A stretch of DNA of 52,024 nucleotides, from NCBI GenBank assembly GCA_028867595.1, contig JAGWGB010000010.1, positions 1-52,024 on the forward strand. The letters are read 5' to 3'. Both the position numbers and the translations under genes were made by a program. Of this stretch, positions 3,663-44,574 are shown piece after piece. Source of the DNA: Nitrososphaerota archaeon (GTDB taxonomy: Archaea; Thermoproteota; Nitrososphaeria; Nitrososphaerales; Nitrosopumilaceae). The stretch's first letter is position 1. The number at the start of each line of letters is the position of its first letter. The notes beneath the pieces are model-generated. The model was not told where the DNA came from. It made no database searches and was given only the letters and a program-made list of their open reading frames with translations.

Positions 3663-3965
3663 ATGAACCCAAAGAATGCTGATGAAACAATTTCAAAGAT
3701 TGATTCCATGATACGCGTTCTTTCAAAATCTTCTCCACACGGTAGCATACTTGAAGAAGGGGACATCAAGGCACTAAATCAAGTATTTCCAGAAGACCAG
3801 TTAAAACTAGCCGATAGGTTGGAGGACTTGATAATATTTCTAAAAGACGAGCCTGATAACAAAAGAAAGATACTCGAGTCCCATGACCTTGCCATGGATG
3901 AGTTTGGACACGTGAAGCCAGTTCATGACGTACTGGACTCTGTAAAGGCGTACTTTCTCAACTAG
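3663..3965 (+). CDS. Conserved-looking hypothetical protein, 100 aa
   Basis: I do not recognise the family. The protein is soluble, acidic and mostly helical by composition, with no Cys motif, signal peptide or membrane segment. It begins MNPKNADETISKIDSM and ends LDSVKAYFLN. A TATA-like TTTTTATATCTA at about 3629-3640 sits roughly 28 bases before the ATG, so the transcript is probably leaderless, which supports this start. It is divergent from the Fe-ADH gene (140-bp shared upstream region) and convergent with the zinc-ribbon gene that ends at 3972. A regulatory or adaptor role would be a guess. Confidence 0.7.
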   Translation: MNPKNADETISKIDSMIRVLSKSSPHGSILEEGDIKALNQVFPEDQLKLADRLEDLIIFLKDEPDNKRKILESHDLAMDEFGHVKPVHDVLDSVKAYFLN

Positions 3966-3971
3966 TATATT

Positions 3972-4991: not shown

Positions 4992-5001
4992 GTCTTTTCT
5001 C

Positions 5002-6087: not shown

Positions 6088-6131
6088 TTACCAACCACTT
6101 ACCCTTCTTATTATTATCATTTTCATTATTC

Positions 6132-6677: not shown

Positions 6678-6754
6678 GTATCACACCATACACAGCAATA
6701 TCGCTTAAGCATTGCGTAACAAAATTAGCGGTCATGTTTCTTGTAGTCTGAGAG

Positions 6755-7516
6755 TTATACCGTGATTATACCGTTAGAGATGAGCCACTGTATTCCCTTG
6801 ACAAAGTCTTGGTCACCCACTTGACCTGATGACCACCATCCAGCAGTTGTCTTGACCCAAGACGGAATTGATTGTGAACCGCTTGTAGAGCCAGACCCTG
6901 ACTGTGGAATCTGCATTATTCCTTTTTGTATTAGATATTGAATTCCTTTGATGAAATCAGAATCTCCCACTTGGCCCTTTGACCACCATCCGGCAGTTGT
7001 CTTGACCCAAGACGGAATCACTGCAGTCTGTGTTCCACCTGATTGACTGTTTGTAGAATTAGAACTTGTAGTTGAGCTTGAGCCACCGCTTAGATCTACA
7101 GTAAATGTTGCAGTCTCAGGTGGAATCGGTTGAAAGAGTATTCCGTCTACCTCTACAATTATCTGATATTTTGCAGCATCCGGAAATTGGAAGGGGTAGC
7201 TAATTGACCCTTCTGCAGTATGTAGTACTTGTCCAGTACCGCCAATCTGGTTGTTTCCTTCCATTATGGTGATTTTGTAATCTATATGCTGTTGAGCGGA
7301 ATGCGTTGATTTGTTGATAAAGCTGATGTTGAGATTTGTCTGTCCACCGGGAGTTGGGCTGGCAGGGTCAGTTGCAAAACCAACATTAATGGTACCGCCG
7401 CTGGTAGTCTGTATTGTCTGATCAGCGTATGCAGGAATTATCATGATTGAAGCGATTGCTAAAAATCCAATGTAAGCAAACAGTTTACTCTTGGAACTAG
7501 AATTCATACTTGACAT
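6755..7516 (-). CDS. Secreted protein with two Trp-rich (WVKTTAGWW) repeats
   Basis: A 253-residue exported protein. The N-terminus has a basic start, a hydrophobic core (LFAYIGFLAIASIMIIPAYA) and a likely cleavage site after AYA. Residues about 35-145 look like an immunoglobulin-like or beta-sandwich domain. A Ser/Thr-rich linker follows, then two near-identical 40-residue repeats beginning PSWVKTTAGWWSKGQVGD and PSWVKTTAGWWSSGQVGD and continuing with DFxKGIQxLIxxGIM. The same repeat, more diverged, occurs in the proteins at 17718-18572 and 42028-42687. Its function is not known to me; it probably binds cell-surface or cell-wall components outside the membrane. A perfect TATATATA-type box at about 7534-7548, roughly 25 bases before the ATG, points to a strong leaderless promoter. 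Confidence 0.8.
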   Translation of the reverse strand: MSSMNSSSKSKLFAYIGFLAIASIMIIPAYADQTIQTTSGGTINVGFATDPASPTPGGQTNLNISFINKSTHSAQQHIDYKITIMEGNNQIGGTGQVLHTAEGSISYPFQFPDAAKYQIIVEVDGILFQPIPPETATFTVDLSGGSSSTTSSNSTNSQSGGTQTAVIPSWVKTTAGWWSKGQVGDSDFIKGIQYLIQKGIMQIPQSGSGSTSGSQSIPSWVKTTAGWWSSGQVGDQDFVKGIQWLISNGIITV

Positions 7517-7635
7517 ACAATTTCTTCTTTGATACTATATATAAAAAAACTGCAAAAGGATAAGCATCCCTTTTAAATCCAGATCATATTTGACCTCAAA
7601 AAGATTCAAAGATTCGGGTCGTCTCTCTGTATTGT

Positions 7636-8919
7636 ATGATCATAAAAAATTTCAAGCAGCTTACAACAAACCAGGATAACAAATTGGCATTGTCAATAAT
7701 TGAAGAAGGTCTTGCCGCCGCTCTTCCTAACACTGTACTAAAAAGAATAACCCATTCCACATTTCTACAAATTGGTCGTAAAAGAATATCTCTGAAAAAA
7801 TACTCTCGTATCTATGTAGTCGCCATTGGCAAATCTGCTGACTTGATGACAAAGGTGGTCAATTCACACACATCGATTGACGGTGGGATTGTGGTAATAC
7901 CTAGTAAAATGAAGTCTGTTATTCATGAACGAAAATTCACAGTCGTGCACTCTGGCCATCCGATTCCTACTAAAATGAGCGTCATTGCAGCAAGAAAAGT
8001 GTCTGATTTTCTCAGGTCCTTGAAACCTGCCGATCTTGTGATCTTTCTAATCTCTGGTGGCGCGTCATCGTTAGTATCTTTGCCTGATGGTATATCGCTG
8101 AAAAGCAAACAGCTTACTACTGATCTCTTGTTGAAATCAGGGGCAAACATACGTGAGATCAACTGTATTAGAAAACACCTCTCTCAAGTCAAAGGCGGGC
8201 GGCTAGTCAAGGCACTTCCATGTGATGGAATATCTCTTGTAATGTCTGATGTGATAGGCGACGATCTTTCCGTGATTGCCTCTGGAATCACGTATTGTGA
8301 CCGATCTACGTTTTCTGATGCAAAAAAAATTCTAGCAAAGTACCATCTGACAAATCGTATCCCAAAATCTGTTCTAAAACGAATCACTCTTGGAACAAAA
8401 GGCCTGATACCAGAGACTCCAAAAAAACCTAAAATTGAAAATTATGTCATCTCTACAAACAAAGACTGTATCAATTCTATGGTATCCAAAGTAAAAAAAC
8501 TTGGATTTGTAACAAAAACGATCTCGCCACTAGGTGGTGATGTCAAAGATGCGGCAGAAAAGATCTCACGACATTTTTCTACTCGCACAAATTCTTGTCT
8601 TATCTTTGGGGGTGAAACTACGGTTACAGTAAAGGGAACTGGATATGGAGGAAGAAATCAGGAATTGATCTTGAATTTGTTAAAAAAACTGCAAAATAAT
8701 AAAGAAAAAATTGTCATCGTGTCTGTGGGAACTGATGGAATAGATGGAAATACTCTAGTTGCAGGGGCGATTGCAGATTCTACCATGACAGTAAAACCAA
8801 TTGATGCATATCTGAAGAAAAATAATTCTCATTTTTACTTTAAGAAATATGGTGGATCAATCACCACTGGACCCACACACACTAATCTTATGGATATAGG
8901 GCTGATATTACAAAAGTAG
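7636..8919 (+). CDS. Glycerate kinase, MOFRL/DUF4147 family (probable glycerate 2-kinase)
   Basis: A 427-residue cytosolic enzyme of the MOFRL family, which phosphorylates D-glycerate to 2-phosphoglycerate with ATP and so feeds lower glycolysis/gluconeogenesis. Diagnostic segments are AIGKSADLM (63-71), FLISGGASSLVSLP (137-150), a KHLSQVKGGRL helix (180-190), SDVIGDD (204-210), the MOFRL-like GGETTVTVKGTGYGGRNQE near 330-348, and GTDGIDGNT near 365-373. Length and motif order match the family. It is divergent from the Trp-repeat protein gene (119-bp gap) and its last 12 bases overlap the convergent gene at 8908. The 2-phosphoglycerate specificity is family knowledge, not read here. Confidence 0.9.
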   Translation: MIIKNFKQLTTNQDNKLALSIIEEGLAAALPNTVLKRITHSTFLQIGRKRISLKKYSRIYVVAIGKSADLMTKVVNSHTSIDGGIVVIPSKMKSVIHERKFTVVHSGHPIPTKMSVIAARKVSDFLRSLKPADLVIFLISGGASSLVSLPDGISLKSKQLTTDLLLKSGANIREINCIRKHLSQVKGGRLVKALPCDGISLVMSDVIGDDLSVIASGITYCDRSTFSDAKKILAKYHLTNRIPKSVLKRITLGTKGLIPETPKKPKIENYVISTNKDCINSMVSKVKKLGFVTKTISPLGGDVKDAAEKISRHFSTRTNSCLIFGGETTVTVKGTGYGGRNQELILNLLKKLQNNKEKIVIVSVGTDGIDGNTLVAGAIADSTMTVKPIDAYLKKNNSHFYFKKYGGSITTGPTHTNLMDIGLILQK

Positions 8920-9291
8920 CAAAGTTGCCTTGTTATCACTAGGTTCGATCATTTTGTATCTAATTGAAAGCCTTCTCTGATCTATCAACTGTTTGATGAA
9001 CCCTGTTCGGGAGTTTACAAACGGATCATCATGTGTTTTATTTTCTGAGAGATGTTCAAACATTGATTTGAGATCAGTCATGACGTTTACGGTATCGCCA
9101 TTTTTTATTATGAATCTTCCAATGCTCCAAAAAATACCTACATGAAGTGCAACATACTTTGACTGCTCTGCAGATATTTTTTCATAATAATCTTCAATGT
9201 GGATTCTGAATTGATCTGATCTTGTCTCACTGTTCTCAATTGTCCATGAGATCTTTTTCTTGTCTCCGTCAAAATAATACGTGTGCTCCAT
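8908..9291 (-). CDS. Hypothetical protein, 127 aa
   Basis: A 127-residue soluble protein that I do not recognise. It begins MEHTYYFDGDKKKISWTIEN and contains a hydrophobic stretch KYVALHVGIFWSIGRFII (about 45-62) too polar at its ends to be a confident membrane helix. It ends DNKATLLLL. No Cys, His or nucleotide-binding motif is obvious. It is convergent with the glycerate kinase gene, overlapping it by 12 bases, and divergent from the small gene at 9368. An AT-rich box just upstream (about 9315-9330) is compatible with an archaeal promoter. Confidence 0.65.
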   Translation of the reverse strand: MEHTYYFDGDKKKISWTIENSETRSDQFRIHIEDYYEKISAEQSKYVALHVGIFWSIGRFIIKNGDTVNVMTDLKSMFEHLSENKTHDDPFVNSRTGFIKQLIDQRRLSIRYKMIEPSDNKATLLLL

Positions 9292-9367
9292 ATGTCAACC
9301 AAAAAGGCGTTGATTGTCTATATATTTTGAATATACAACTGAATAACAAAAATAAAAACTTGTTTTC

Positions 9368-9574
9368 GTGCTAGAAGCCAATTCATTCTTCACAAACATG
9401 GTCGACGAGTTGGTCGAGTTCTCAGCGTATGATCCTGAGCTTGCAGAAGGTCTCAAATGGATAGACACTGAGGCTCAAAAACGAGGTATAACCTTCTATG
9501 AGATGGTCTTTCATGTCTTACACAGATATGATGTTGACACGCGAGCAAAAGACTGGCTTGCTAAAAGAAATTAA
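9368..9574 (+). CDS. Small acidic helical protein, 68 aa, paralogue of the gene at 11619
   Basis: A GTG-started 68-residue protein with no known domain. It aligns along most of its length with the 77-residue protein encoded at 11619-11852: VDELVEFSAYDPELAEGLKW against VDNFVVETKDPKILDEISQL, then GITFYEM against GISFYDM. This shows a small paralogous family within 2.3 kb. The content is helical and acidic, with a conserved aromatic FYxM. It could be an adaptor or antitoxin-like peptide, but neither copy has a toxin-like neighbour; the function is unknown. Confidence 0.65.
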   Translation: MLEANSFFTNMVDELVEFSAYDPELAEGLKWIDTEAQKRGITFYEMVFHVLHRYDVDTRAKDWLAKRN

Positions 9575-9637
9575 AACCGAAATTTATCTGACACTTGCCG
9601 ACTCAATCTTTAAGATCATCTGTTGGATATTATTTCT

Positions 9638-10084
9638 ATGAAAAAGACATTCAAGAGAGCCCCCAAGAAACTTTTTGACAAGTTTTCTTTGTACTTTCCA
9701 TATTCCACTGTGGATGTAGCTATACGATGCGATGACTCGTTTATTCTGACCAGAAGAACCATATTGCCATACAAAAACAAGTGGAATCTTCCTGGAGGCA
9801 TTGTCTTTAAAACTGAAAAACTATCCGATGCAGCAAAAAGAGTTGCAAGAGAAGAGCTCAGCCTAACAGTAAAGATTGAAGGGTTTCTTGGCGTTTACGA
9901 AAATGCGATATCATCAAGGCATGATATATCTCACGTATTTGTCGCATCTGTTTTGAAGGGCGATATAGTGCTAGATTTTCAAAGCAGCAAAGCAAAACTC
10001 TTCAAAACTCCGCCCTCTGACATGGTGCCTTATCAGAAAAAGATCTTACTTGATGCAATGGCTTTTCTAAAAAGAAAAAACTAG
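9638..10084 (+). CDS. Nudix hydrolase-like protein
   Basis: A Nudix-fold protein of 148 residues from ATG 9638. Five codons upstream, in frame, is a TTG at 9623. I prefer 9638 because a TATA-like CTTTAAGATC at about 9606-9615 then lies near -28. The Nudix box region reads GGIVFKTEKLSDAAKRVARE then ELSLTV. The GxxxxxE spacing and the EE pair are present, but the R-E pair is R-V and the terminal Gly is Ser, so the box is degenerate. Active Nudix enzymes cleave nucleoside diphosphate derivatives with Mg2+; this one may have altered specificity. The 3' end overlaps the convergent gene at 10081 by 4 bases. Confidence 0.75.
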   Translation: MKKTFKRAPKKLFDKFSLYFPYSTVDVAIRCDDSFILTRRTILPYKNKWNLPGGIVFKTEKLSDAAKRVAREELSLTVKIEGFLGVYENAISSRHDISHVFVASVLKGDIVLDFQSSKAKLFKTPPSDMVPYQKKILLDAMAFLKRKN

Positions 10085-10263
10085 TGTATGGCTGAGCAGA
10101 TATCTCCAAAGACATCTGGGTTGTACTGCCCGGCATAAAATTTTACGCTTGTATTGCGAGGAATTATCTTGCATATCACATCTGGTATGAGAAAATCTGC
10201 CATGACGTAAACTCCTATGAGCAAACATCCAATCACAATAATTATGCCAAGCGGAAACTTCAC
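10081..10263 (-). CDS. Small membrane protein, 60 aa
   Basis: A GTG-started 60-residue protein with one clear N-terminal hydrophobic segment (FPLGIIIVIGCLLIGVYVMA, residues 3-22), then a short soluble tail with two cysteines (DVICK and DICSAI). No family is recognised. The tail would face either side of the membrane. It overlaps the Nudix gene end by 4 bases in convergent orientation and lies upstream of the minus-strand citrate synthase with an AT-rich gap. Its small size makes the call moderate, but the hydrophobic pattern and tidy packing support it. Confidence 0.5.
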   Translation of the reverse strand: MKFPLGIIIVIGCLLIGVYVMADFLIPDVICKIIPRNTSVKFYAGQYNPDVFGDICSAIH

Positions 10264-10319
10264 AGCGTGCCTGTGTTAGGCCTGTATAATAATCATCAAA
10301 CTAATTTTCATCTAATGTA

Positions 10320-11492
10320 TCATGATAACGTTAATCTTTTTTCAATAGGTACGTATTCGCAACCTGAAGGGCCGCAATACTTGCCGACATAAACTGCCTT
10401 TGGTCTGTACAGCATTGGCTTTGGTTGCGCCTCTGCAAATTTCTCTTCAATTACATGTGCTGTCCAGCCTGCAGTTCTTGAAATTGCAAATATTGGTGTA
10501 TTAAGATCCATTGGTATCCCTAGCATGTAGTATGTTGAGGCGCTGTACAAGTCCACATTTGGAAAAATGTCGGAGCCCTTTACTTTTTTCATCTCTTCTT
10601 CTGTCACATCTTCTACTTTTTTTGTAATCTTGTACCACGGCTGTCCTGTTTTTTCTGAAAGCCTGCGTGAGAGCTCTCTTAGCACCTCGGCCCGTGGGTC
10701 AAATGTCTTGTACACTGCATGGCCCATGCCCATTATTCTTCCGCCCTTTGCAAGTTTTTCTTTTATGATTGATTCAACTCTATCTTCAGTTTGAATCTCA
10801 AGCAGCATCTTCATCACTTGAAAATTTGCCCCTCCGTGGAGTTCCCCACTTAGAGCACCTATTGCAGCACTGACTGCAGCATACATGTGTGCGCGAGTAG
10901 AGGCAACCTCTCTTGCTGCAAAGGTAGATGCGTTAAAGCTATGCTCTGCATGCAAGATAAGACATATGTCAAAAATTCTGGAAATCTCAGAATCCGGCTC
11001 CTTTCCTGTTAACATGTAAAGGAAATTTCCTGCATGTCCAAGTTTTGTTGACGGTGCTATGGTATCTTTTCCATTTCTAATTCTGTCCCAGTATGCTATG
11101 ATTATTGGAATCTTTGAGATAAGATCAATTGCCCGATTGTAATTTGCATGTCTGTCGTCCCCTTTTTCTTTGTCATACGCAGCCAACTCTGCCACGCGAG
11201 ACTGGATGACATCCATGGGGTTGGTAGTCTTGGGTAAGTTTTTCAGATTTTTTTCTAGGCTTTCTGGTATCGTTCGTGCCTCAATCAACTTGGTTGCAAA
11301 ATCTGACAAAACGTCTTCTGTTGGAAGATCATCGCTGAGAAGCAGACATGCAGTCTCTTCAAAATTTGATTTCTTGACTAGGTCTAAAATGTCGTATCCT
11401 CTATAGATCAGCTTGCCATTAATTCCGTCTATTGCACAAATCTTTGTGTCTGCGACCTCAATATTGCGGAGGCCTATGTTCTTTGTCTGCAC
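10320..11492 (-). CDS. Citrate synthase
   Basis: Citrate synthase condenses acetyl-CoA with oxaloacetate to give citrate, the entry into the oxidative branch of the TCA cycle. Family segments are IDGINGKLIYRGYDI near the N-terminus, ILHAEHSFNASTFAAREVAS (catalytic His region), GGANFQVMKML, GMGHAVYKTFDPRAEVL (second catalytic His), and SRTAGWTAHVIEE near the end. The open frame extends up to 11627 but the true start is probably GTG at 11492. That gives about 390 residues, matches the usual N-terminus (QTKNIGLRNIEVADTKI), and leaves a TATA-like AATAATTTAA (about 11520-11529) near -28. The longer frame would also run into the divergent gene at 11619. Confidence 0.93.
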   Translation of the reverse strand: MQTKNIGLRNIEVADTKICAIDGINGKLIYRGYDILDLVKKSNFEETACLLLSDDLPTEDVLSDFATKLIEARTIPESLEKNLKNLPKTTNPMDVIQSRVAELAAYDKEKGDDRHANYNRAIDLISKIPIIIAYWDRIRNGKDTIAPSTKLGHAGNFLYMLTGKEPDSEISRIFDICLILHAEHSFNASTFAAREVASTRAHMYAAVSAAIGALSGELHGGANFQVMKMLLEIQTEDRVESIIKEKLAKGGRIMGMGHAVYKTFDPRAEVLRELSRRLSEKTGQPWYKITKKVEDVTEEEMKKVKGSDIFPNVDLYSASTYYMLGIPMDLNTPIFAISRTAGWTAHVIEEKFAEAQPKPMLYRPKAVYVGKYCGPSGCEYVPIEKRLTLS

Positions 11493-11618
11493 CAGAGTAA
11501 TATTGTAAAAATTATCTATTAAATTATTGCTAAAGGGGAAAAACGGTAAAAAATTAAGCACTGGGTCTAATCTGGCAACGTTGGAGCATATAGCAAAATT
11601 TTTAATGAATTGTATGAA

Positions 11619-11852
11619 ATGGCTCAACTGGAAGACGACTTTATAAAATTGGTCGATAATTTTGTAGTCGAGACAAAGGATCCTAAAATACTTGATGAAA
11701 TATCACAACTTGATCAGGAATCAAGGTTGCTTGGAATCTCGTTTTATGACATGTATTGTGTGGTATTGCAGGATGGCATGAAACACAAAGCTCTGGTCTC
11801 AGAATTTAAGACCTACATGAATCTCAAAAAACCTGCAACTTTTGCAGTTTAG
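11619..11852 (+). CDS. Small acidic helical protein, 77 aa, paralogue of the gene at 9368
   Basis: A 77-residue soluble, acidic, helical protein beginning MAQLEDDFIKLVDNFVVE. An in-frame TTG at 11610 exists, but a TATA-like GCATATAGC at about 11586-11594 places a leaderless start at ATG 11619. It shares its core with the product of 9368-9574, including the DP pair and GISFYDM/GITFYEM, so the two are paralogues separated by four genes. Function unknown. It is divergent from citrate synthase with a 126-bp intergenic region and precedes the DHH phosphoesterase gene by 61 bases. Confidence 0.7.
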   Translation: MAQLEDDFIKLVDNFVVETKDPKILDEISQLDQESRLLGISFYDMYCVVLQDGMKHKALVSEFKTYMNLKKPATFAV

Positions 11853-11913
11853 ACCAAACAGACAAGTAATTCGTTTTTGATTTAAATGAGGGTGGTTCTG
11901 CCTTGTTAATTCT

Positions 11914-12894
11914 ATGGCAAGAACCAAGGTCGTATGCATCTCACATAAAGAAGACGCAGACGGTGTTGGCGCAGCCTCATTGATAAGGCAGGCCTTTGGA
12001 GGCGAGACTAGGCTAGTTGATTATCCAGGGCTCATGACAGAACTTGAACAGTTGCGTTACGATGATTCTATTAAAACAGTATACATATGTGACTTGGGAC
12101 TGAGCAAGACAAACCAAGACCAGTTCGTCGAACTTTTGAAAGATTTAAGGAAAAAACGTATAGCGATAACCTACATAGATCATCATGATCTAGACGACAG
12201 CATAAAGAAAAAGATCCAATCCTTAAAAGTAAAACTAATTCATACGATAAATGAATGCACGACCGTCCAAGTCTATAACGCATTCAAATCAAAATTAAAC
12301 GACCACAGCTCTTTGATTGCAGCATGTTCTGCAGTTACAGATTACATGGAAGACAGGCCTATTGGTTCTGCACTGCTTCAAAGGTTTGATCGACAGTTTA
12401 TCCTGCTTGAAGCAACAGTTCTTACCTTTACTATTGTCAGCCATCAAAAGGACAACGAATATCTTTTGTATCTTGTCGAAGAGCTAAGCCAATTGAAATA
12501 TCCTCATGATATTCCAAATACTTTTGAGTTTGCCCGCATTCAAGCAGAACGAATCTCCGGCGTCATTCAAAAAGTCAAGGCAAACATGAAGAAGATGAAA
12601 AACCTTGCATACATGGAAGTGACAGACTCTGGGGCAAGCATGGTGGTTAATTTTGTCTTGGGTCTTTCGGGAAAAGACGTTGGAGTTTCATACAAGTTCA
12701 GAGAGGAGAAGGGAATCTATGCAGTGTCAATTCGTGGCTCAAGGTCGTGCAAAATACATTTGGGACGAATAGTTAACCAATTGGCAACAGACCTTGGCGG
12801 TTCAGGTGGAGGACATGACAAAGCATGCGGTGCAGTCATACCAAAAGAGAAAATATCTCAATTTATAAAAAAATTCAATGCCAAGCTTAACTGA
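11914..12894 (+). CDS. DHH-DHHA1 family phosphoesterase (RecJ/NrnA-like)
   Basis: A 326-residue enzyme with the full DHH set: CISHKEDADGVGAA (H11, D14, D16), DLGLS with D60, and IDHHD (D89-H90-H91-D92) as Mn-binding residues. The C-terminal DHHA1 module carries GGSGGGHDKACGAVIP (about 303-318), which binds substrate. DHH-DHHA1 proteins hydrolyse short RNA or DNA oligomers (NrnA-like), cyclic dinucleotide products or single strands (RecJ/GAN-like). With a single compact protein and no OB extension, an oligonucleotide-degrading role is the better guess. Overlaps the convergent RidA gene by 8 bases. The ATG start is followed by MARTKVVC and is the only sensible one. Confidence 0.9.
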   Translation: MARTKVVCISHKEDADGVGAASLIRQAFGGETRLVDYPGLMTELEQLRYDDSIKTVYICDLGLSKTNQDQFVELLKDLRKKRIAITYIDHHDLDDSIKKKIQSLKVKLIHTINECTTVQVYNAFKSKLNDHSSLIAACSAVTDYMEDRPIGSALLQRFDRQFILLEATVLTFTIVSHQKDNEYLLYLVEELSQLKYPHDIPNTFEFARIQAERISGVIQKVKANMKKMKNLAYMEVTDSGASMVVNFVLGLSGKDVGVSYKFREEKGIYAVSIRGSRSCKIHLGRIVNQLATDLGGSGGGHDKACGAVIPKEKISQFIKKFNAKLN

Positions 12895-13342
12895 CTTCGG
12901 CTATCATATCTATCTCAACTGTAGAATTTAACGGAAGGCTTGCAACTCCTACTGCTATTCTGGAATGCTTTCCCTTCTCACCAAATATCTCAAATAACAA
13001 GTCTGATGCCGCATTGATGATCTTGGGCTGTTCATAAAAATCGCTTGCACTGTTCACAAAGCCTGATACTCTGACAATTTTTGAAACCTTGTCCAAGCTT
13101 CCAATCTCTGCTCTGAGCTGCGCCAGGACGTTTATGACGCAAAGTTTGGCAGCTTGCTGTGCTGTTTCTATTGATACGTCTGTTGGCACCTTTCCTTGAA
13201 ATTCTACTTTGCCCTCTTTTACAGGAATCTGTCCTGAGACAAACACAAGATTTCCAGTTCTTGTAACCGGAATGTATGAGCCTGCAGGCTTGGGCGGAAC
13301 AGGAAGCAAAATGTTCAGCGATGCGATTTTTTCTTCAATCAT
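12887..13342 (-). CDS. RidA/YjgF/YER057c family protein (reactive imine deaminase-like)
   Basis: A 151-residue protein of the RidA/YjgF family, trimeric cytosolic proteins that hydrolyse reactive enamine/imine intermediates from PLP enzymes. Segments supporting this are NLVFVSGQIPVKEGKVEF, AAKLCVINVLAQLRAEIGSL, VRVSGFVNSASDF, INAASDLLFEIFGEKG and VASLPLNSTVEIDMIA. The usual active-site Arg found in archetypal RidA before the C-terminal strand (in a VARSRVxVAxLP-type motif) is represented here by HSRIAVGVASLP, with the Arg present. The longer form (YjgF 'LPS-like' subgroup, about 150 residues) is compatible with the length. It is convergent with the DHH gene. Confidence 0.88.
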   Translation of the reverse strand: MIEEKIASLNILLPVPPKPAGSYIPVTRTGNLVFVSGQIPVKEGKVEFQGKVPTDVSIETAQQAAKLCVINVLAQLRAEIGSLDKVSKIVRVSGFVNSASDFYEQPKIINAASDLLFEIFGEKGKHSRIAVGVASLPLNSTVEIDMIAEVS

Positions 13343-13406
13343 GATTTTGCTTGTCTTGTGAATCTTTTAACTTTATGTTCATATATGGTGCAAGCCGAAT
13401 CAAAAC

Positions 13407-13643
13407 GTGGAAAACTCGCATGGAAAAAAGATGCAAAAAGAACTTGATGTCATGGAATCAAGACTTGATGCACTTGAGGCTGCATCAGGCGACAAGTACC
13501 AAAAATCAATGATAAGCGTTCTCAAAGGCCTGACTGAAAACCAAAGACACCTTGTCGAAGAATTTGAGCATTTGAAAAAGGCAATAGATCTGCTCACGCT
13601 CCAGATTTTCAAAGTGGAAAAAAAACTTGATTCTGGACAATAA
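13407..13643 (+). CDS. Small coiled-coil protein, 78 aa
   Basis: A GTG-started 78-residue protein made almost wholly of predicted helix with heptad hydrophobics (MQKELDVMESRLDALEA and FEHLKKAIDLLTLQIFKVEK), so a short coiled coil. No domain name can be assigned. It precedes the cupredoxin gene by 75 bases on the same strand. A TATA-like TTATGTTCATATATGG region at 13371-13387 lies about 25-30 bases upstream. A second small helical protein of similar size is encoded at 43078. Confidence 0.6.
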   Translation: MENSHGKKMQKELDVMESRLDALEAASGDKYQKSMISVLKGLTENQRHLVEEFEHLKKAIDLLTLQIFKVEKKLDSGQ

Positions 13644-13718
13644 ATCTAAATGCCCATGTGCTTGCCAAGCAATTTATAAATAAAAGATTAAATTCAGCCG
13701 CTATTTTTTGGACAACAA

Positions 13719-15014
13719 ATGTCTGCATCAAGCGAGCCGGCAAATAACCCAAAACCTGTTGTCAAAGACAAGAATCCTCACAACTATAGAAAAGTGGGTT
13801 ATTCAATGATCGTAATCTCTGTCTCCCTTGTAGTGATTGCTTTGCTTGTGTGGGCAATAGGTGATGATTATCATTACTCTACTAATATCATGGCTCTTCA
13901 GGAAGTAGATGCAATGACTCCAAAGTCAGGATATAATATTGTCATGTTTGATATTTCCCAGCCAGTCGGTGCAAAGTTAAAGATGCTTGACCATGCAGAA
14001 GATCTTGATACCGCATTAGCCTTACAAGCCCAAGATGAAAAACAAAATACTGGAAACACAATCCAAGTGCTTCTCTTCAATGGTACCAAAGATTACAACT
14101 TGCAACTCATGTCTGATGCAGAGGTATACATTCAGACTCCTGCCAAGGGATACAACGTAGTTCTTTACCAGAGCGACTTGGCAGTTGGACAAAAAATAAC
14201 GCTTGGCATACATGAAGATCTGCTTGACAACGCTACGGCTTATCAGCAACAACAAATAGATAATCTAAAAGGAACTCCAGTCCAAGCCTTAATCTTTACA
14301 CCTGATTACCGAAGTGATCTGAAAACGATTACTGGTTCTGACATTCCTGTAGGATTTTATGCCACTATACCAAATTATACTGCCCCTATAGAACAGAATG
14401 TCACACAAACATCTACAAACCAAACTGTGCAGACAAGCACAACCAATTCTAGCTCAACTGTAACACAATTACCGCCAAGTACATCAAACCAAACTAGCGT
14501 CTCAACTAATCAAACTAATGCCGTAACCAATCCGCCTGCAACAAATAACACTCAAACTACAACTGTATCAAACATGACAATGTCAAACATGACAACAACT
14601 GCTCAAACCAAAGGAATGGTAACAATTAGCAGCGGTGCAGCTAACACAAAAGGTGAATGCTCGGACACAAACTGCTTCAACCCACAAGATGTTAACATCA
14701 ATGTGGGAGACACTGTCACATGGACAAACTCTGACACTGTTGGTCACACTGCAACAAGTGGTAAGGTGACAGACAATCAGACAGGCACTGTCTTTGACAG
14801 CAGTTTGATTGCAGCAGGCAAGTCTTACACTAGTCCTGCTTTCACAACTGCAGGAGAATATCATTACTTTTGTCAAGTTCATCCATGGATGACTGGTGAA
14901 GTAATTGTCGGAGCTGCAGGATCAACAAGTCCACATGGAAGTGGTAACGCAACTGGAACCTTGAAAACAATTAGCCTAAATGAAACAGTAGGCATGAATG
15001 CCACTGGAAAATAA
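13719..15014 (+). CDS. Membrane-anchored blue-copper (plastocyanin/cupredoxin) protein with a duplicated N-terminal extracellular domain
   Basis: A 431-residue protein. One membrane anchor spans about residues 27-47 after a polar, Pro-rich cytoplasmic start. Residues 68-136 and 141-208 are a tandem repeat of an unrecognised domain (SGYNIVMF.../KGYNVVLY..., each ending near MSDAEV/TGSDIP). A Thr/Asn/Gln-rich, probably glycosylated linker covers 220-300, and the C-terminal cupredoxin 300-398 has type 1 copper ligands H343, C385, H388 and M391 in VGHTAT and YHYFCQVHPWM. Two further cysteines (C314, C319) may form a disulfide. Ammonia-oxidising archaea use such copper proteins as extracellular electron carriers; the carrier role is inferred from the family. 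A short Ser/Gly tail follows. Confidence 0.9.
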   Translation: MSASSEPANNPKPVVKDKNPHNYRKVGYSMIVISVSLVVIALLVWAIGDDYHYSTNIMALQEVDAMTPKSGYNIVMFDISQPVGAKLKMLDHAEDLDTALALQAQDEKQNTGNTIQVLLFNGTKDYNLQLMSDAEVYIQTPAKGYNVVLYQSDLAVGQKITLGIHEDLLDNATAYQQQQIDNLKGTPVQALIFTPDYRSDLKTITGSDIPVGFYATIPNYTAPIEQNVTQTSTNQTVQTSTTNSSSTVTQLPPSTSNQTSVSTNQTNAVTNPPATNNTQTTTVSNMTMSNMTTTAQTKGMVTISSGAANTKGECSDTNCFNPQDVNINVGDTVTWTNSDTVGHTATSGKVTDNQTGTVFDSSLIAAGKSYTSPAFTTAGEYHYFCQVHPWMTGEVIVGAAGSTSPHGSGNATGTLKTISLNETVGMNATGK

Positions 15015-39741: not shown

Positions 39742-40134
39742 ATGCCGGCAACTAATATTTTAGCAAACATGTTTGTGACGCTGTACAATAGCGAGGCTAG
39801 AAGAAAGGGAGACTGTGTCATATTACCAACATCAAAACTTGCAACAGAGGTACTCAAGACACTGCAAAACCACGACTACATTGGTGAGTTTGAGCATGTA
39901 GACGACAAGAAAGGTGGCAAGTTCAAGATACAATTATTGGCAAAGATAAACAAATGTGGTGCAATTACCCCAAGATTCAAGGTAAGCAAAGATGGATACG
40001 CCAGATGGGAACAGCAGTACCTTCCTTCGTATTCTAGGGGAATGTTAATTGTCACTACAAATCAGGGTGTAATGTCACATCACGAGGCAGTTGAAAAAGG
40101 AATTGGAGGATTATTGATAGGATATGTCTACTGA
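39742..40134 (+). CDS. rps8: Ribosomal protein S8
   Basis: The uS8 (130 residues from ATG 39742; GTG 39733 would add three). A perfect GGTGAT (39732-39737) lies four bases before the ATG. Recognised by MPATNILANMFVTLYNSEAR, RKGDCVILPTSKLATEVLKT and ITPRFKVSKDGYARWEQQYL, ending TNQGVMSHHEAVEKG. It overlaps rpl6 by 11 bases. Confidence 0.95.
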   Translation: MPATNILANMFVTLYNSEARRKGDCVILPTSKLATEVLKTLQNHDYIGEFEHVDDKKGGKFKIQLLAKINKCGAITPRFKVSKDGYARWEQQYLPSYSRGMLIVTTNQGVMSHHEAVEKGIGGLLIGYVY

Positions 40135-40681
40135 GCAAGTCGAGATTCATGAGGTAACAATTGAAATTCCAGATAAAGTAAAGGTATCTGAACATCACAG
40201 GATTCTCAATGTGGAAGGACCTCTTGGGAAAACAAGAAAGAACTTTAAGAAAATTCCAGTGGTTCTGCAAATAAACGGAAAAAATATTGTAGTAAAGTCC
40301 ATTGGTACCCGCAAAAAAGATTATGCAATATTCAAGACTGCAGAATCACTTATTCGAGCACTCATCAAGGGGGTCCAGACTGGATATACATTCAAAATGA
40401 AAATAGTTTATGCCCACTTTCCAATCACTGTCAAGGTAAAAGACGGTTACATTCACGTCGAGAATTTTCAGGGTGAGCGCGCTGCGCGAGTATCAAAAGT
40501 ATTTGGTGCAACAAAAGTTGTCTCAAAGGGAGACGATGTCATAATCACAGGACCAGTACTCACTGATGTCTCTCAGACAGCTGCAAGTCTTCAACAAAAC
40601 ACCAAAGTAAAAAACAAAGACTCGAGAGTTTTTCTTGACGGCATCTATCTTTTTGAAAAACAAGACGGGATCGAAAAGTAA
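40124..40681 (+). CDS. rpl6: Ribosomal protein L6
   Basis: The 185-residue uL6 near the factor-binding site. Recognised by VTIEIPDKVKVSEHHRILNV, EGPLGKTRKNFKKIPVV and GERAARVSKVFGATKVVSKG, and the end DSRVFLDGIYLFEKQDGIEK. It ends the cluster here: L32e, L19e, L18, S5, L30 and L15, which follow in many archaea, are not present, and a tRNA gene comes next. Confidence 0.95.
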   Translation: MSTEQVEIHEVTIEIPDKVKVSEHHRILNVEGPLGKTRKNFKKIPVVLQINGKNIVVKSIGTRKKDYAIFKTAESLIRALIKGVQTGYTFKMKIVYAHFPITVKVKDGYIHVENFQGERAARVSKVFGATKVVSKGDDVIITGPVLTDVSQTAASLQQNTKVKNKDSRVFLDGIYLFEKQDGIEK

Positions 40682-40725: not shown

Positions 40726-40799
40726 GCCGCCCTAGCTCAGCGTGGTAGAGCAGCTGACTGTTAATCAGCGGGTCGTCAGTTCAAGTCTGACGGGTGGCG
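40726..40799 (+). tRNA. tRNA-Asn (GTT)
   Basis: A 74-base tRNA 44 bases after rpl6. The acceptor GCCGCCC pairs with GGGTGGC (one G-U). Anticodon stem GCTGA/TCAGC surrounds loop CTGTTAA, giving GTT (Asn). The T-arm is GTCAG-TTCAAGT-CTGAC and the D-arm AGCTCAGCGTGGTAGAGC. CCA is not encoded. GGATTAAATC at 40691-40700 is a suitable TATA box about 30 bases upstream. Confidence 0.96.
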
Positions 40800-40807
40800 C
40801 TTTAATC

Positions 40808-40829
40808 TTTCTAAATTCGAATTTAGAAA
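40808..40829. repeat. 22-bp perfect palindrome, copy 1
   Basis: The half-site TTTCTAAATTC is followed directly by its exact reverse complement. It begins nine bases after tRNA-Asn and is followed by CATTGTTT, so that on the minus strand the palindrome is preceded by AAACAATG, exactly as copy 3 is on the plus strand. Identical in its 22 bases to the copy at 44534-44555. Confidence 0.85.
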
Positions 40830-40884
40830 CATTGTTTTTCTAGTTGTGCCCTGCATGTGAATTGTTTTAGCATGTTTGTAATCT

Positions 40885-40914
40885 AATATTTCTAAATTCG
40901 AATTACGAAATATT
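40885..40914. repeat. Imperfect copy 2 of the AATTCGAATT palindrome
   Basis: Arms AATATTTC and GAAATATT enclose TAAATTCGAATTA, keeping the TTTCTAAATTCGAATT part of the 22-bp palindrome but with AC in place of TA in the right arm. It lies 88 bases upstream of the ribosome site of the zinc-ribbon gene at 41002, between it and tRNA-Asn. Confidence 0.7.
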
Positions 40915-41001
40915 GTGATACGATCACATTTTGGTTCATTCTATTAGACTGCATAGATCTAATACTGATCGCTACATACTCACATATGCAGGAGGTCCGC
41001 A

Positions 41002-41259
41002 TTGGCCAGAACAAGACGCGCAAATAGGTATTGCGTGGATTGTGGGGGAAGGCTAGTTTACTATCCCCGCCTTTCGAACCCAAAAGCTCCTAACGAGTAT
41101 AGGGTGCTGGTATATGCATGTCCCGACTGCACTAAAGATTTTGATAAACCAAAGATGTTTTCAATACGACGAAATGTAGTTGAAGAACCTATAGAGACAG
41201 TCGAAATAGAGATAGTCCAAGCAAGGGAAAAGATTCCAGAAATTGTCAAATCTGCCTAG
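41002..41259 (+). CDS. Zinc-ribbon protein, 85 aa
   Basis: A TTG-started 85-residue protein with a clear zinc ribbon: C11-x2-C14 (YCVDCGG) and C40-x2-C43 (YACPDC), then an acidic beta-rich end (VEEPIETVEIEIVQAREKIP). A perfect GGAGGT at 40991-40996 sits five bases before the TTG, a strong reason to accept the start. It lies downstream of two palindrome copies. Function unknown; the basic start (MARTRRANR) plus ribbon could bind nucleic acid. Confidence 0.75.
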   Translation: MARTRRANRYCVDCGGRLVYYPRLSNPKAPNEYRVLVYACPDCTKDFDKPKMFSIRRNVVEEPIETVEIEIVQAREKIPEIVKSA

Positions 41260-41316
41260 GACATACAAGAATATCGCAGCAAAACCCAAGTACAACATAC
41301 AAGAAAACCAACCCAG

Positions 41317-41640
41317 ATGCGTGTCTTCTATACTCAAAATCTTGAAAGCATCTTAGACCGAATAGAACTAAATGATTGGAGGCAAAGGTTGCAAGAACCA
41401 TTAACTTATCGTGAGCAGTCCTTGTCTGATAATTGGAAATATTGTGCATTAGGGGAGAGGATAAAAAGAGAGGGCAGGGATCTTGACAAAGTAAAAGATC
41501 TGACACCTGAAGCCATAAAACTGGGATTTAGTTTTGCAACTGCAGTAAAACGCCGAGATAGTACGGCGGCCTTGGAAATTTTGGAGCAAATTGAAAAACT
41601 GCCTTCCATATGGCGAAATGCTGCTGAACTAAACCAATAG
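41317..41640 (+). CDS. Hypothetical helical protein, 107 aa
   Basis: A 107-residue soluble helical protein of unknown family, beginning MRVFYTQNLESILDRIELND and ending LPSIWRNAAELNQ. The C-terminal half (PEAIKLGFSFATAVKRRDST) could be a small helix-turn repeat. It is 57 bases after the zinc-ribbon gene on the same strand. Its stop opens the 387-base G-run region. Confidence 0.6.
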   Translation: MRVFYTQNLESILDRIELNDWRQRLQEPLTYREQSLSDNWKYCALGERIKREGRDLDKVKDLTPEAIKLGFSFATAVKRRDSTAALEILEQIEKLPSIWRNAAELNQ

Positions 41641-41709
41641 AGGGCCTTTTTTCAATACATTTTATGTCTTGGGGGGGGGCTAATGGCATCTATTATATGT
41701 CAAAACATT

Positions 41710-41724
41710 ATTTTTTCAAAAATG
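41710..41724 (+). repeat. ATTTTTTCAAAAATG motif, copy A
   Basis: ATTTTTTCAAAAATG followed by GCAC. Matched in reverse orientation at 41901-41915 and in direct orientation at 42760-42774. The motif is itself a near palindrome (ATTTTT/AAAAAT arms around TC). Confidence 0.6.
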
Positions 41725-41900
41725 GCACTACCCAGACCAGCTGTAACAGCAGCATTTTAACATGAAAAAAGTCCAAAAACGGGGGTTTAGCTTTTGTTCA
41801 GTGGATATGAAGAATTGGAAACTCTTGCTGGGTAATGGGGGTGTTTTGACCCTTGGCTGCTATATGTACGCACAAGTGTTAAACCCCCCATAAAATTGAC

Positions 41901-41915
41901 CATTTTTGAAAAAAT
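41901..41915 (-). repeat. ATTTTTTCAAAAATG motif, copy B (inverted)
   Basis: The plus strand reads CATTTTTGAAAAAAT, the reverse complement of copy A; including the flanking G/C the match is 16 bases. It lies 176 bases from copy A, so the two could pair as a long stem in RNA. Confidence 0.6.
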
Positions 41916-42027
41916 CAGCCTAGGCATAATTATTGGAAAATAACAGGGGGTTTAGCCTTTAGATATGGTTACCTTTTGCTCTATAAACGAGAATAAAACC
42001 AGTAAAACCACAATGTAATACCTTGTG

Positions 42028-42687
42028 TTATCCGATTATTTGGTTGTTGATAAGATATTGCACCAAATCTACAAACTCATCGTTTGTGATTTTTCCATCT
42101 GATAACCAAATTGCATCATTTTTCAACCATGATGGTAAGGATCCTTCATCTAATGTCATGTTTGAATTTATGACTTGATAGTCTATCAGATTGCTGATAG
42201 AATGAAAATAGTCAGACTCTCTTATTTTGCCGTCATACCATAGCCTTGAAGCATCTTTGAACCATGTTGGGATTGTTTTTGATGGTACTGTATCGGTAGA
42301 AGACTGGTTGGATAGTTTTATGACTGATTCGTAGGTCTCGCTTCTCGTATGACCGTATACACTCCCGCCAAGAAACAACGCATAAAAGTGAAACGGACTA
42401 CCATTGTCTTTTGGAACTGCCTGCCAGTAAGCCGTAAACTTGCCGTCAGAATCTGTTGTAGTGACTGCCAAAATTATGTTAGGACGCGTATAAGACGTGT
42501 CATCCTCAATGAATATGGCACGATAAGGTATTGGCGTCCCACTAGATGTAGTCAACAGGCCAGAAAATACGACATTGGATCCCTCTCTTACTTCCCCCAC
42601 AGGATCTAAATGCAATGTTGCGTAAGATGATGCATAGACAGACGGCACACCAATTAGCAAAATCGCAATTAGACAGTTTTTCCACAT
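42028..42687 (-). CDS. Secreted beta-domain protein with two diverged Trp-type repeats
   Basis: A 219-residue exported protein from ATG 42687 (a GTG at 42690 is in frame). The signal peptide is CLIAILLIGVPSVYASS. Residues about 25-130 look like an Ig-like or transthyretin-like beta domain (GREGSNVVFSGLLTTSSGTP-like, TTTDSDGKFTAYWQAV). The C-terminal 80 residues hold two repeats related to the WVKTTAGWW family: IPTWFKDASRLWYDGKIRES and LPSWLKNDAIWLSDGKITND, each followed by a DF/DY...LI..QVI segment. Extracytoplasmic; ligand unknown. It ends against the G-run region. Confidence 0.78.
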   Translation of the reverse strand: MWKNCLIAILLIGVPSVYASSYATLHLDPVGEVREGSNVVFSGLLTTSSGTPIPYRAIFIEDDTSYTRPNIILAVTTTDSDGKFTAYWQAVPKDNGSPFHFYALFLGGSVYGHTRSETYESVIKLSNQSSTDTVPSKTIPTWFKDASRLWYDGKIRESDYFHSISNLIDYQVINSNMTLDEGSLPSWLKNDAIWLSDGKITNDEFVDLVQYLINNQIIG

Positions 42688-42759
42688 CACACAAACTCCC
42701 CTCCAACTGACATTATTTCAAATCTCTTTTGATTGTGTTCTTTAAATTGTTTTAAAACC

Positions 42760-42774
42760 ATTTTTTCAAAAATG
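42760..42774 (+). repeat. ATTTTTTCAAAAATG motif, copy C
   Basis: Third copy, upstream of the secreted protein gene (start 42687) and flanked by two TTTAAAACCATT direct repeats. It is in the likely promoter region of that gene, unlike copies A and B, which lie beyond its 3' end. Confidence 0.55.
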
Positions 42775-42880
42775 CACCATTTAAAACCATTTATTTTAGA
42801 TCTCATACGATTTTGCCTTCTTTTGATACTCGATAGGGTGGTACAAATAACCCGTAAAGCATCAAAGAATTTGAATATCA

Positions 42881-42982
42881 ATGGTTCTTTGTCACAAATG
42901 CTCTGATGAAAAGCATGGAGAATGCATGGGAAAAGCAGGCATGTTTGACTGTGACTGTAAACTCTGCAAATCACACGATTAG
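42881..42982 (+). CDS. Cys-rich microprotein, 33 aa
   Basis: A 33-residue frame from ATG 42881 to TAG 42980-42982: MVLCHKCSDEKHGECMGKAG then MFDCDCKLCKSHD. Six of 33 residues are Cys (4, 7, 15, 24, 26, 29), with C-x2-C, C-x-C-x2-C spacing typical of a metal knuckle. Such Cys density strongly suggests coding. It is divergent from the secreted protein gene. The layout C-x2-C ... H ... C ... C-x-C is like the 50-residue protein at 15020. Function unknown. Confidence 0.6.
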   Translation: MVLCHKCSDEKHGECMGKAGMFDCDCKLCKSHD

Positions 42983-43077
42983 GTAGTTTATCTCATAGAA
43001 CGAGGTAAAGATCGATTCACTAAAGTAAAAAAGATGATTTTCTGGCTTTAAATAGATGAGACCTTCATGGATTCACT

Positions 43078-43332
43078 ATGACCCGACAAGAAGAAGGCAA
43101 TATGCCTACAGGTGCTGAAGTAAAGAAGATAGTATCTGACGAAGTAAGGCCACTTCTTGAAAAGCTGACTGAGCTTGTAGATAAGATGGAAAGATACCAC
43201 AGGCATGATGTAGAGTTTCAACAGAAATTGATACTCTTGATATCTCAAATGTTCAAAAACCAGGAAATCTCAATGGAGGGATTTGACAAGCTTGACTCTT
43301 TTCTGCGAAAGGAATTCTTCTGGGGCAAGTAA
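43078..43332 (+). CDS. Small coiled-coil protein, 84 aa
   Basis: An 84-residue helical protein: MTRQEEGNMPTGAEVKKIVS then DEVRPLLEKLTELVDKMERY. Heptad hydrophobics run through LLEKLTELVDKM and FQQKLILLISQMF, suggesting a short coiled coil or helical hairpin. No known domain. A TTTAAATAG box at 43046-43054 lies about 28 bases before the ATG, consistent with a leaderless message. Confidence 0.65.
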   Translation: MTRQEEGNMPTGAEVKKIVSDEVRPLLEKLTELVDKMERYHRHDVEFQQKLILLISQMFKNQEISMEGFDKLDSFLRKEFFWGK

Positions 43333-43441
43333 ATACAAGAAGAATAATTTGTAAAAAACAAACAAACTCTGAAATTTCTTCAAGTCGTTGTTTAGATGAA
43401 TTGATCTTCACATTAAATAGCAAGATTTTTCAAAAATTGTT

Positions 43442-43783
43442 ATGGAAAAGTTTGACCTTAAGATATCGATAAACAAAAAGCCAACTGATGCCCAAATCAA
43501 AAAACTTCAAGATTATTTTGCTGAAATGCCAATGGATGAAATTCTTGGTGGACTTTATTTTGCGAAAAATAGATGGAAAGCCAAGGATGCAGGAGTTCTC
43601 AAAGTAGGCAGAAAAAGCATCATAAAAAAAGAAATTCACTCTATAACTTCAGAGCAGGCACAATGGCGCCTCAAAAACTGGAAGATGATGATAGCAAATT
43701 ATCGCAGACTTGGATATAGCTATCCGACCATATCTAGAATTAAGAAACTTTTGGTAGAGACAAGCAAGAGAAAACCTAGATAG
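43442..43783 (+). CDS. Hypothetical basic protein, 113 aa
   Basis: A 113-residue strongly basic, helical protein: MEKFDLKISINKKPTDAQIK, FAEMPMDEILGGLYFAKNRW and a C-terminal IANYRRLGYSYPTISRIKKL ending ETSKRKPR. The C-terminal helices with many Arg/Lys could form a DNA-binding unit of unknown type. ATTAAATAGC at 43413-43422 is a TATA box near -25. Its stop overlaps the convergent cdvB gene by eight bases. Confidence 0.6.
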   Translation: MEKFDLKISINKKPTDAQIKKLQDYFAEMPMDEILGGLYFAKNRWKAKDAGVLKVGRKSIIKKEIHSITSEQAQWRLKNWKMMIANYRRLGYSYPTISRIKKLLVETSKRKPR

Positions 43784-44414
43784 TTTCTTGCTTTCTTACC
43801 GTAGACGGTAGGGTTGATGGCAAGTCCGGAATGCTTTGTCTTACCTGTCCCTCTAATACCGCGTGTGCCTCTTCTAATATTTGACTTGTTTCTGCGCTTG
43901 TTGCATCCACAGTGAACGTATTTTCTGAGTTCATGGATGCACCAGCCATTATGTCCCCCAATATGTTTGACAAGTCTTGCATTGAAGAATTGGCTTCTGG
44001 CATAAGTCCACTCAAGCCTGAGCCCAATCCTTTGATGATTGACATGCATGGACTTAGCGTAACCACAACGTCTCCAAGCTCCGAGATTGTATTTAGTCTG
44101 AGCTGAATCTGTTCCATGGCTAATTTGGCCCCAACTACCATGTTAGTCATCTTTCTAATCTCGTGCAGTTCAGTTGCGTATGCCTGAGAATATGGTTTAT
44201 TGTGAGATCTTACTGATTCTACTACCTTTTTGAAAATGTATTCATCTTTTTCTTTTAGTTTTCTTGAGATGGAATCAAGTTTGGAAATTTGAAGTTGCAG
44301 CCTTTTTTGTGCCTCATCAATCTTTGGCCTAAGAGGTGCATCTGGTTTTACCTTATCGATTACTTTTTGTGAGAGGCTATCTTTCTGTATATTCCATCTT
44401 GCTGCAAAGTTCAT
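43776..44414 (-). CDS. cdvB: CdvB/ESCRT-III (Snf7-family) cell-division protein paralogue
   Basis: An ESCRT-III-like protein of the archaeal CdvB family, which polymerises at the membrane during thaumarchaeal and crenarchaeal division and vesicle budding. From ATG 44414 it has 212 residues: MNFAARWNIQKDSLSQKVID, DAPLRPKIDEAQKRLQLQIS and SKLDSISRKLKEKDEYIFKK form the basic alpha1/alpha2 hairpin, followed by TNMVVGAKLAMEQIQLRLNT. The frame extends to ATG 44453, but TTTTAAAC at 44444-44451 fits a TATA box for the 44414 start. The acidic C-terminus has no obvious winged helix or proline-rich MIM2 motif I can name. Thaumarchaea have several CdvB paralogues; which this is cannot be told. Confidence 0.88.
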   Translation of the reverse strand: MNFAARWNIQKDSLSQKVIDKVKPDAPLRPKIDEAQKRLQLQISKLDSISRKLKEKDEYIFKKVVESVRSHNKPYSQAYATELHEIRKMTNMVVGAKLAMEQIQLRLNTISELGDVVVTLSPCMSIIKGLGSGLSGLMPEANSSMQDLSNILGDIMAGASMNSENTFTVDATSAETSQILEEAHAVLEGQVRQSIPDLPSTLPSTVRKQETI

Positions 44415-44533
44415 TATTGACTGCGTCTTGATCTGAATTAATGTTTTAAACATTCATGTTCTGCAATTTGATGTAACTGCAGTGACACCTGTCTGTAGAT
44501 ACATACAAGTTTGACACCTTTTGATAAACAATG

Positions 44534-44555
44534 TTTCTAAATTCGAATTTAGAAA
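44534..44555. repeat. 22-bp perfect palindrome, copy 3, upstream of cdvB
   Basis: Exact repeat of the palindrome at 40808-40829 (TTTCTAAATTC plus its reverse complement), preceded by AAACAATG. It lies between the cdvB start (44414) and the end of the TlpA-like gene (44575), about 120 bases upstream of cdvB, so it could act on that promoter. Confidence 0.85.
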
Positions 44556-44574
44556 TATCATTCATCAAACATGG

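Follow-up and report, generated by a model that had tools for sequence, protein, structure and literature searches.

Ammonia-oxidizing archaea (AOA) are globally abundant, carry a single chromosome copy and divide by means of Cdv proteins. SegAB has been described for Crenarchaea and Euryarchaea, and in Escherichia coli the matS sites bound by MatP are distributed across a macrodomain several hundred kb in size. The SegB motif is a 13-bp sequence (TCTAGASTCTAGA) with about 45 sites scattered over the Sulfolobus chromosome, mostly inside genes (PMC12284271), and the AspA centromere of the archaeal plasmid pNOB8 is a 23-bp palindrome upstream of the gene for a small dimeric binder (PMC5120986). 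Here we describe a palindromic site detected in a stretch of 52,024 nucleotides of a Nitrosotalea genome (contig JAGWGB010000010.1, positions 1 to 52,024; hereafter the window), together with a 113-residue protein, F17, that is its candidate binder, and a family of small circular replicons, some of which carry one copy of it. Nearly every genome of the Nitrosopumilaceae, Nitrosocaldaceae and Nitrososphaeraceae has a single cluster of 2 to 5 intergenic copies beside the S10/spc ribosomal operon, and the cluster marks the replication-terminus region of the chromosome. The palindrome has the appearance of a DNA address, hitherto undescribed, for chromosome organisation or segregation; no description of the motif was found among the open-access papers searched, a search that did not extend to subscription papers.

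A sequence-only reading of the window had reported two identical 22-bp palindromes and a diverged copy, and all three were recovered exactly: TTTCTAAATTCGAATTTAGAAA is letter-perfect at 40808-40829 and 44534-44555, and a third copy with two changes (AATATTTCTAAATTCGAATTACGAAATATT) lies at 40885-40914. By chance, 0.01 matches with at most 3 mismatches are expected in the window, and no shuffle gave as many as three. The whole genome (1,684,419 bases in 170 contigs, 96.5% complete) contains three copies in total at this threshold, all of them between 40.8 and 44.6 kb of the window, and a reversed control pattern had no match in the same genome-wide search. The flank AAACAATG, seen earlier as shared by the first and third copies in opposite orientation, proved to be an inverted repeat (I2; 36 nt, 94%). 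No Rfam family matched at the palindromic sites, which are as follows.

40805 to 40832, no strand: site 1, a 28-bp palindromic unit with a perfect 22-bp core at 40808-40829, directly after tRNA-Asn.
40885 to 40914, no strand: site 2, the two-change copy, with its core at 40889-40910, 81 bp from site 1.
44531 to 44558, no strand: site 3, with a perfect core at 44534-44555, about 80 bp upstream of the start of a CdvB paralogue.
43428 to 43448, no strand: a probable decayed site, TTTCAAAAATTGTTATGGAAA, overlapping the F17 start codon, as judged by direct reading and comparison with congeners.

Several congeners have TTTCAAAATTCGAATATGGAAA at the F17 start in place of the decayed sequence, and the window retains three sites because its copy at that position appears to have decayed. 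Another AT-rich short repeat, CCATTTTTGAAAAAAT with its inverse (up to 16 nt exact), is present three times in the cluster interval (41710-41725, 41900-41915 and 42757-42773) and has no relation to the palindrome.

Alignment of 311-313 distinct sites from many genomes gave the consensus ATRTTTCTAAAYTCGARTTTAGAAAYAT, a unit of 28 bp with sharp edges and only weakly conserved flanks, in good agreement with the earlier estimate of about 30 bases. Perfect palindromes account for 121 of 311 cores, and the 22-mer of the window is by far the most frequent form (105 of 311 distinct sites). The symmetric centre, AAYTCGARTT, is both the most symmetric and the most conserved part. A change in one half is mostly unmatched in the other half; at core position 8, for example, the pairings C/A (46) and T/G (40) both outnumber C/G (27). 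Since the halves vary independently, they may be read as two half-sites in DNA, as for a dimeric protein, rather than as the stem of an RNA. An RNA hairpin was rejected, as symmetric positions pair no more often than independent halves predict, with at best a slight excess where variation is greatest. Close pairs of sites, in 52 of 56 cases, are spaced by 59-60, 69-72 or 80-82 bp, distances that differ by about one helical turn, and the range of 59-82 bp is seen again in other genera. Among distinct spacings, the null distribution of a helical phasing statistic reached the observed value in 3% of draws; the phasing is only supportive because the spacings are partly inherited.

Sites with at most 1 mismatch were found in 119 of 150 genomes drawn from the order, including nearly all members of families f1, f2, f3 and f8, of which f1, f2 and f8 probably correspond to the Nitrosopumilaceae, Nitrosocaldaceae and Nitrososphaeraceae, respectively; families f4, f7, f9, f10, f12, f13 and f14 had no convincing site in this draw at the same threshold. 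A relaxed core (TTTCNNAAYTCGARTTNNGAAA, up to 2 mismatches) revealed clusters in 8 of the remaining genomes that encode F17. Within Nitrosotalea, 24 of 25 genomes (that of the window included) have sites, mostly in a single group of 3-5 copies within about 4 kb, which some draft assemblies split between contigs. When GTDB species genomes were scanned for TTTCNNAATTCGAATTNNGAAA, most stretches among the matches listed were from Thaumarchaeota (Nitrosopumilus, Nitrosarchaeum, Nitrosotenuis, Nitrosotalea, Nitrosopelagicus, Nitrosocaldus, Nitrososphaera, Cenarchaeum and Marine Group I), often with 2-3 copies close together. Matches in bacterial genomes (TTTCGAAATTCGAATTTCGAAA type) are isolated and lack AT flanks, and were taken as chance or other repeats. 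Diverged forms of the site are present in a Cenarchaeum-like genome of 2,045,086 bp (G124) and in a GC-rich Cenarchaeum-related genome (G151), the latter with four copies of TTTCCGAACCCGAGTTCAGAAA or close variants in a span of about 1 kb. These four sites (contig C1, 2986783-2987820) are derived and slightly asymmetric, with the core AACCCGAGTT, and lie about 2 Mb from the F17 gene; G151 is a natural case of site evolution.

The sites within a cluster span about 1-15 kb, and similar sites elsewhere are almost absent from each genome. In most of the genomes examined, the cluster is intergenic and starts where the ribosomal protein operon ends, at the gene for L6. The neighbours are a zinc-ribbon gene, F17 and a CdvB paralogue in Nitrosotalea, and a zinc-ribbon gene and several other small genes in Nitrosopumilus; as the neighbours differ between genera while the sites stay, the site set outlives its neighbours. 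The matches are not scattered and the sites are conserved in relatives, the two points on which the sequence-only reading had made an operator role depend. In Nitrosopumilus-type genomes, a gene for a histone-H1-like protein rich in lysine and alanine adjoins one site (L300, 3383-3793, minus strand, at about 703.4 kb of Nitrosopumilus maritimus; also L261 and L264).

The relaxed motif occurs in 12 of the 2.9 million contigs of IMG/VR, and 11 of the 12 belong to one family of mini-replicons (contigs L248, L249 and L320-L346). These contigs, of 4.1-4.4 kb, have terminal repeats of 36-144 bp and are therefore circular. Exactly one motif-perfect copy is present in 11 of the 21 mini-replicons examined, and the rest have no trace of it or a single weak match. 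The copy lies between divergent genes in six mini-replicons and in another intergenic region in five; each of these five has a different palindrome, TTCTCTATTCTNAGAATAGAGAA, between its divergent genes. This second palindrome, found in the divergent-gene interval of L321, L324, L328, L331, L336 and relatives, has no match, with as many as 3 mismatches allowed, in 2.9 Mb of sequence that is mostly chromosomal. The mini-replicon proteins have essentially no match in PHROGs and include no recognisable recombinase and no recognised replication protein; F17 was not detected in viral contigs. A single copy per circle, at alternative places, is what would be expected of a site acting at the level of the replicon (partition, tethering or resolution), and the palindrome suggests that the hosts are AOA. 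The sharing of the site by these circles, and the variable genes between the chromosomal sites, could be taken to favour the second proposal of the sequence-only reading, that the palindromes are the ends or remnants of a small integrated mobile segment. Small mobile replicons do carry a copy, but the sites are fixed in chromosomes across the lineage: the cluster is present in every AOA family, mostly at the same place and with recurring internal spacings, there is no presence/absence variation with an empty site, and no element-like cargo lies between the sites. Conservation across families refutes this reading for the present locus, and we assign it a very small probability.

In 23 single-contig genomes of 11 genera, the distance from the cluster to the best orc1/cdc6 gene is 0.397-0.488 of the circle, with a mean of 0.458; taking one value per genus (11), P is about 1e-9 under uniform position. 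The 23 genomes are not independent, because the ribosomal operon is itself a conserved neighbour. In N. maritimus SCM1 (G086; 1,645,259 bp), for example, the sites occupy 703318-707077, with orc1/cdc6 at base 197. Repeats of the origin recognition box (ORB) type, resembling TGGAGTGGAAATAAAGGGG and present in at least 2 direct or inverted copies 61-62 bp apart, were found beside orc1/cdc6 in 13 of 14 genomes, and almost none of equal quality in 1.1 Mb of control stretches, except in one control that is itself an orc1/cdc6 region. Two direct copies 61-62 bp apart, often with further inverted ones, are seen in L368 and L367 (bases 1-15000 and the end of the N. maritimus chromosome), L372, L374, L376-L382, L384 and L385. 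The ORB repeats identify orc1/cdc6 as the origin side and the cluster as terminus-proximal. The opposite arrangement, in which the palindrome is the site of a replication initiator and the true origin is far from orc1/cdc6, would fit a single cluster per chromosome and the single copy on mini-replicons that have no recognised replication gene. We consider it very improbable, given that the ORB repeats, known archaeal initiator sites, are not at the cluster, that N. maritimus has one mapped origin (PMC5333045), and that the Ori-Finder 2 prediction for this species matches DoriC (PMC4164010).

Two other known kinds of terminus site have to be weighed. A site that blocks replication forks or terminates replication, as in Tus-Ter or RTP-ter, would be expected in the terminus region and in clustered copies, but the near-perfect symmetry of the palindrome implies no polarity, the copies lie within a few kb rather than flanking the region, and 4-kb circles with the site would stall their own forks; such a role is improbable. 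Equally improbable, in our estimate, is a dif-like site at which a tyrosine recombinase resolves chromosome dimers, borrowed by integrative mini-elements as in Xer-dependent phages. The terminus location, the symmetric 28-bp site and its carriage by small circles encoding no recognisable recombinase are all as this model would have it. However, no PF00589 match was found in five site-bearing genomes (G000, G088, G094, G102 and G133, the last four being single-contig and 97-99% complete), and Thaumarchaea lack xerA according to a published survey (PMC2958812). Furthermore, recombination among 2-5 close copies would delete or invert the intervening DNA, and both symmetry and conservation are highest at the centre of the site, unlike in a dif spacer. 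The dif model is thus disfavoured by the lack of a universal tyrosine recombinase, the several copies and the symmetric centre.

F17 was detected in 126 of the 150 genomes of the order, nearly always as a single-copy gene, and is absent from the other families; no match was found outside the order in a draw of genomes from the phylum. Sites are present in 125 of the 126 F17-bearing genomes, and co-occurrence in the strict-pattern contingency table is significant (Fisher P = 4e-17). In most genomes the F17 gene lies within about 15 kb of the sites; the N. maritimus orthologue is at 717819-718157. The protein has no match in Pfam or NCBIfam and no credible match in the PDB (by sequence and by fold) or in a fold search of BFVD. 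Its AlphaFold model is all helical (pLDDT 88.5, pTM 0.50), and the most conserved segment, WRLKNWKMMIANYRxxGYSYPTISRIKK, is modelled as two helices joined by a turn, which we read as a putative helix-turn-helix.

The genes around the cluster in the window bear on whether the sites are simply operators, and are listed here.

40124 to 40681, plus strand: final gene of the ribosomal protein operon, assigned to L6 from its place and its conservation; it forms the conserved edge of the cluster.
40726 to 40800, plus strand: tRNA-Asn (GTT).
41002 to 41259, plus strand: zinc-ribbon protein of 85 amino acids, a conserved neighbour of the paired sites in Nitrosopumilaceae.
43442 to 43783, plus strand: F17, an orphan protein of 113 amino acids and candidate site binder, with an all-helical model and a helix-turn-helix-like C-terminus.
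43776 to 44453, minus strand: CdvB1/B2-like ESCRT-III (Snf7) paralogue, convergent with F17.

Also between the sites (42028-42690, minus strand) is a gene for a predicted secreted protein of 220 amino acids, which has no Pfam match and no relative among the compared loci.

The main rival explanation is a local operator, by which F17 or another regulator would repress or activate a small, conserved one-locus regulon (F17, zinc-ribbon protein and CdvB paralogue) and no other genes, and the mini-replicons would borrow the operator for divergent promoters. The sites are intergenic, and one of them lies about 15-60 bp upstream of the F17 start in Nitrosocaldaceae (G025, G056), in f3 (G026) and in Nitrososphaeraceae (G031, G057, G061, G079, G101, G103 and G087), and overlaps the F17 start codon in most Nitrosotalea; this arrangement, found in four families, is typical of autoregulation, which is probable for F17 whether the operator or the terminus view holds. 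The paired sites upstream of the zinc-ribbon gene, site 3 upstream of the CdvB paralogue, and the six mini-replicons with the site between divergent genes also favour an operator. On the other hand, there is no site at F17 in Nitrosopumilus, where one site (703318 in N. maritimus) sits between convergent genes ending at 703305 and 703382; the flanking genes turn over while the sites remain; five mini-replicons carry the site in a different intergenic region; and near-invariance across deep divergence, with confinement to the terminus, is unusual for operators. We regard the local operator as possible but unlikely.

The same observations decide how much of the first proposal of the sequence-only reading, an operator for a dimeric regulator linking division genes to others, can be kept. 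A symmetric site for a dimeric binder remains the probable interpretation, as the halves vary independently and the sites are conserved at orthologous places, whereas a plain division-gene operator is not supported, in view of the one locus per genome, the changing flanks and the convergent-gene site of Nitrosopumilus. Copy 3 is indeed upstream of the gene that had been called cdvB, although the product is better described as a CdvB1/B2-like Snf7 paralogue: its top NCBIfam match is CdvB1/B2 (E 3.5e-44), yet below the curated cut-off. The link between sites and cdvB is present in Nitrosotalea, Nitrosocaldaceae, f3 and Nitrososphaeraceae and missing from N. maritimus. Both meanings proposed in that reading are too narrow.

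The interpretation that we prefer, at roughly even chances, is a centromere-like or terminus-organising site with F17 as candidate binder, borrowed by mini-replicons; that F17 is the binder, that it binds as a dimer, and that the role is in segregation, terminus organisation or replicon maintenance are inferred. What the computation shows is the sites with their consensus, their clustering at one locus, their taxonomic range, their place opposite an ORB-bearing orc1/cdc6, their shared distribution with F17 and their occurrence in the mini-replicons. The palindrome would act in cis, bound by a dimeric or paired protein, and its cluster of 2-5 copies is a single, vertically inherited feature of the terminus region of AOA chromosomes. 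F17 may bind the sites, aided by the helically phased close pairs, and build a nucleoprotein focus acting like a centromere or terminus organiser. The DNA replicated last could in this way be marked out for segregation or unlinking, or for coordination with division by Cdv. Through their one copy, the circles of about 4.2 kb would be maintained or tethered by this machinery. More tentatively, and with less confidence than the general interpretation, the sites could form a dedicated terminus centromere on the side of the AOA chromosome away from the origin. An AOA-specific protein with a fold of a new family would bind it and couple Cdv division to the DNA replicated last, and circular viruses or plasmids of 4 kb would hijack it for their own partition.

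Several observations weigh against a centromere-like or terminus-organising role with F17 as binder. The co-distribution of F17 and sites largely reflects one ancestral gain, with few independent evolutionary events, and it has exceptions: G155 has F17 without sites, and G052 and G070, among the 24 genomes without detected F17, have a small site cluster. F17 is far from the sites in G133, G124 and G151. It has no recognisable fold relative in the PDB and BFVD searches, and the helix-turn-helix reading draws on weak matches, Pfam HTH_32 being sub-threshold in two members. About half of the mini-replicons are without the site. The position opposite the origin is in part a legacy of the neighbouring ribosomal operon, and no usable signal of an origin-terminus axis came from GC skew or coding-strand bias, for which 20 stretches of G006 and 20 of G025 were sampled. 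Bacterial parS clusters, moreover, are near origins and not termini.

To the study of chromosome organisation and segregation in AOA, the finding contributes a defined DNA site together with a candidate protein, its place on the chromosome and species suited to testing. The motif also connects AOA hosts with a family of tiny circular replicons not described before, and is a marker for finding further members.

Compared with known systems, the AOA cluster resembles the parS clusters of ParABS in that several copies of one perfect palindrome occupy one chromosomal locus, usually with the gene of the binder (here a candidate) nearby, and in that plasmids also use the site. It differs in lying at 0.40-0.49 of the circle from orc1/cdc6, whereas parS is near the origin, and in that, as far as the tests went, its sequence has no relation to parS and the candidate F17 none to ParB, F17 having no ParB match in Pfam. 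The Sulfolobus SegB sites of SegAB are likewise archaeal palindromes with one copy upstream of the binder operon, but they are scattered and 13 bp long, in contrast to a 28-bp consensus with 2-5 intergenic sites at one locus. As in the pNOB8 AspA system, a palindrome is found upstream of a small binder gene, for which F17 is the candidate in AOA; that system is of a plasmid and has ParA and ParB partners, whereas the AOA sites are chromosomal. With the dif site of XerC/D or XerA, the AOA site has in common that it is a 28-bp symmetric terminus site borrowed by small mobile elements, but it occurs in several copies with a symmetric centre and without a universal tyrosine recombinase, whereas dif is single with an asymmetric spacer. 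Finally, although the AOA sites lie within a few kb and not over a macrodomain, they share with matS of E. coli MatP a palindromic sequence that distinguishes the terminus region and through which this region could be connected to the division machinery.

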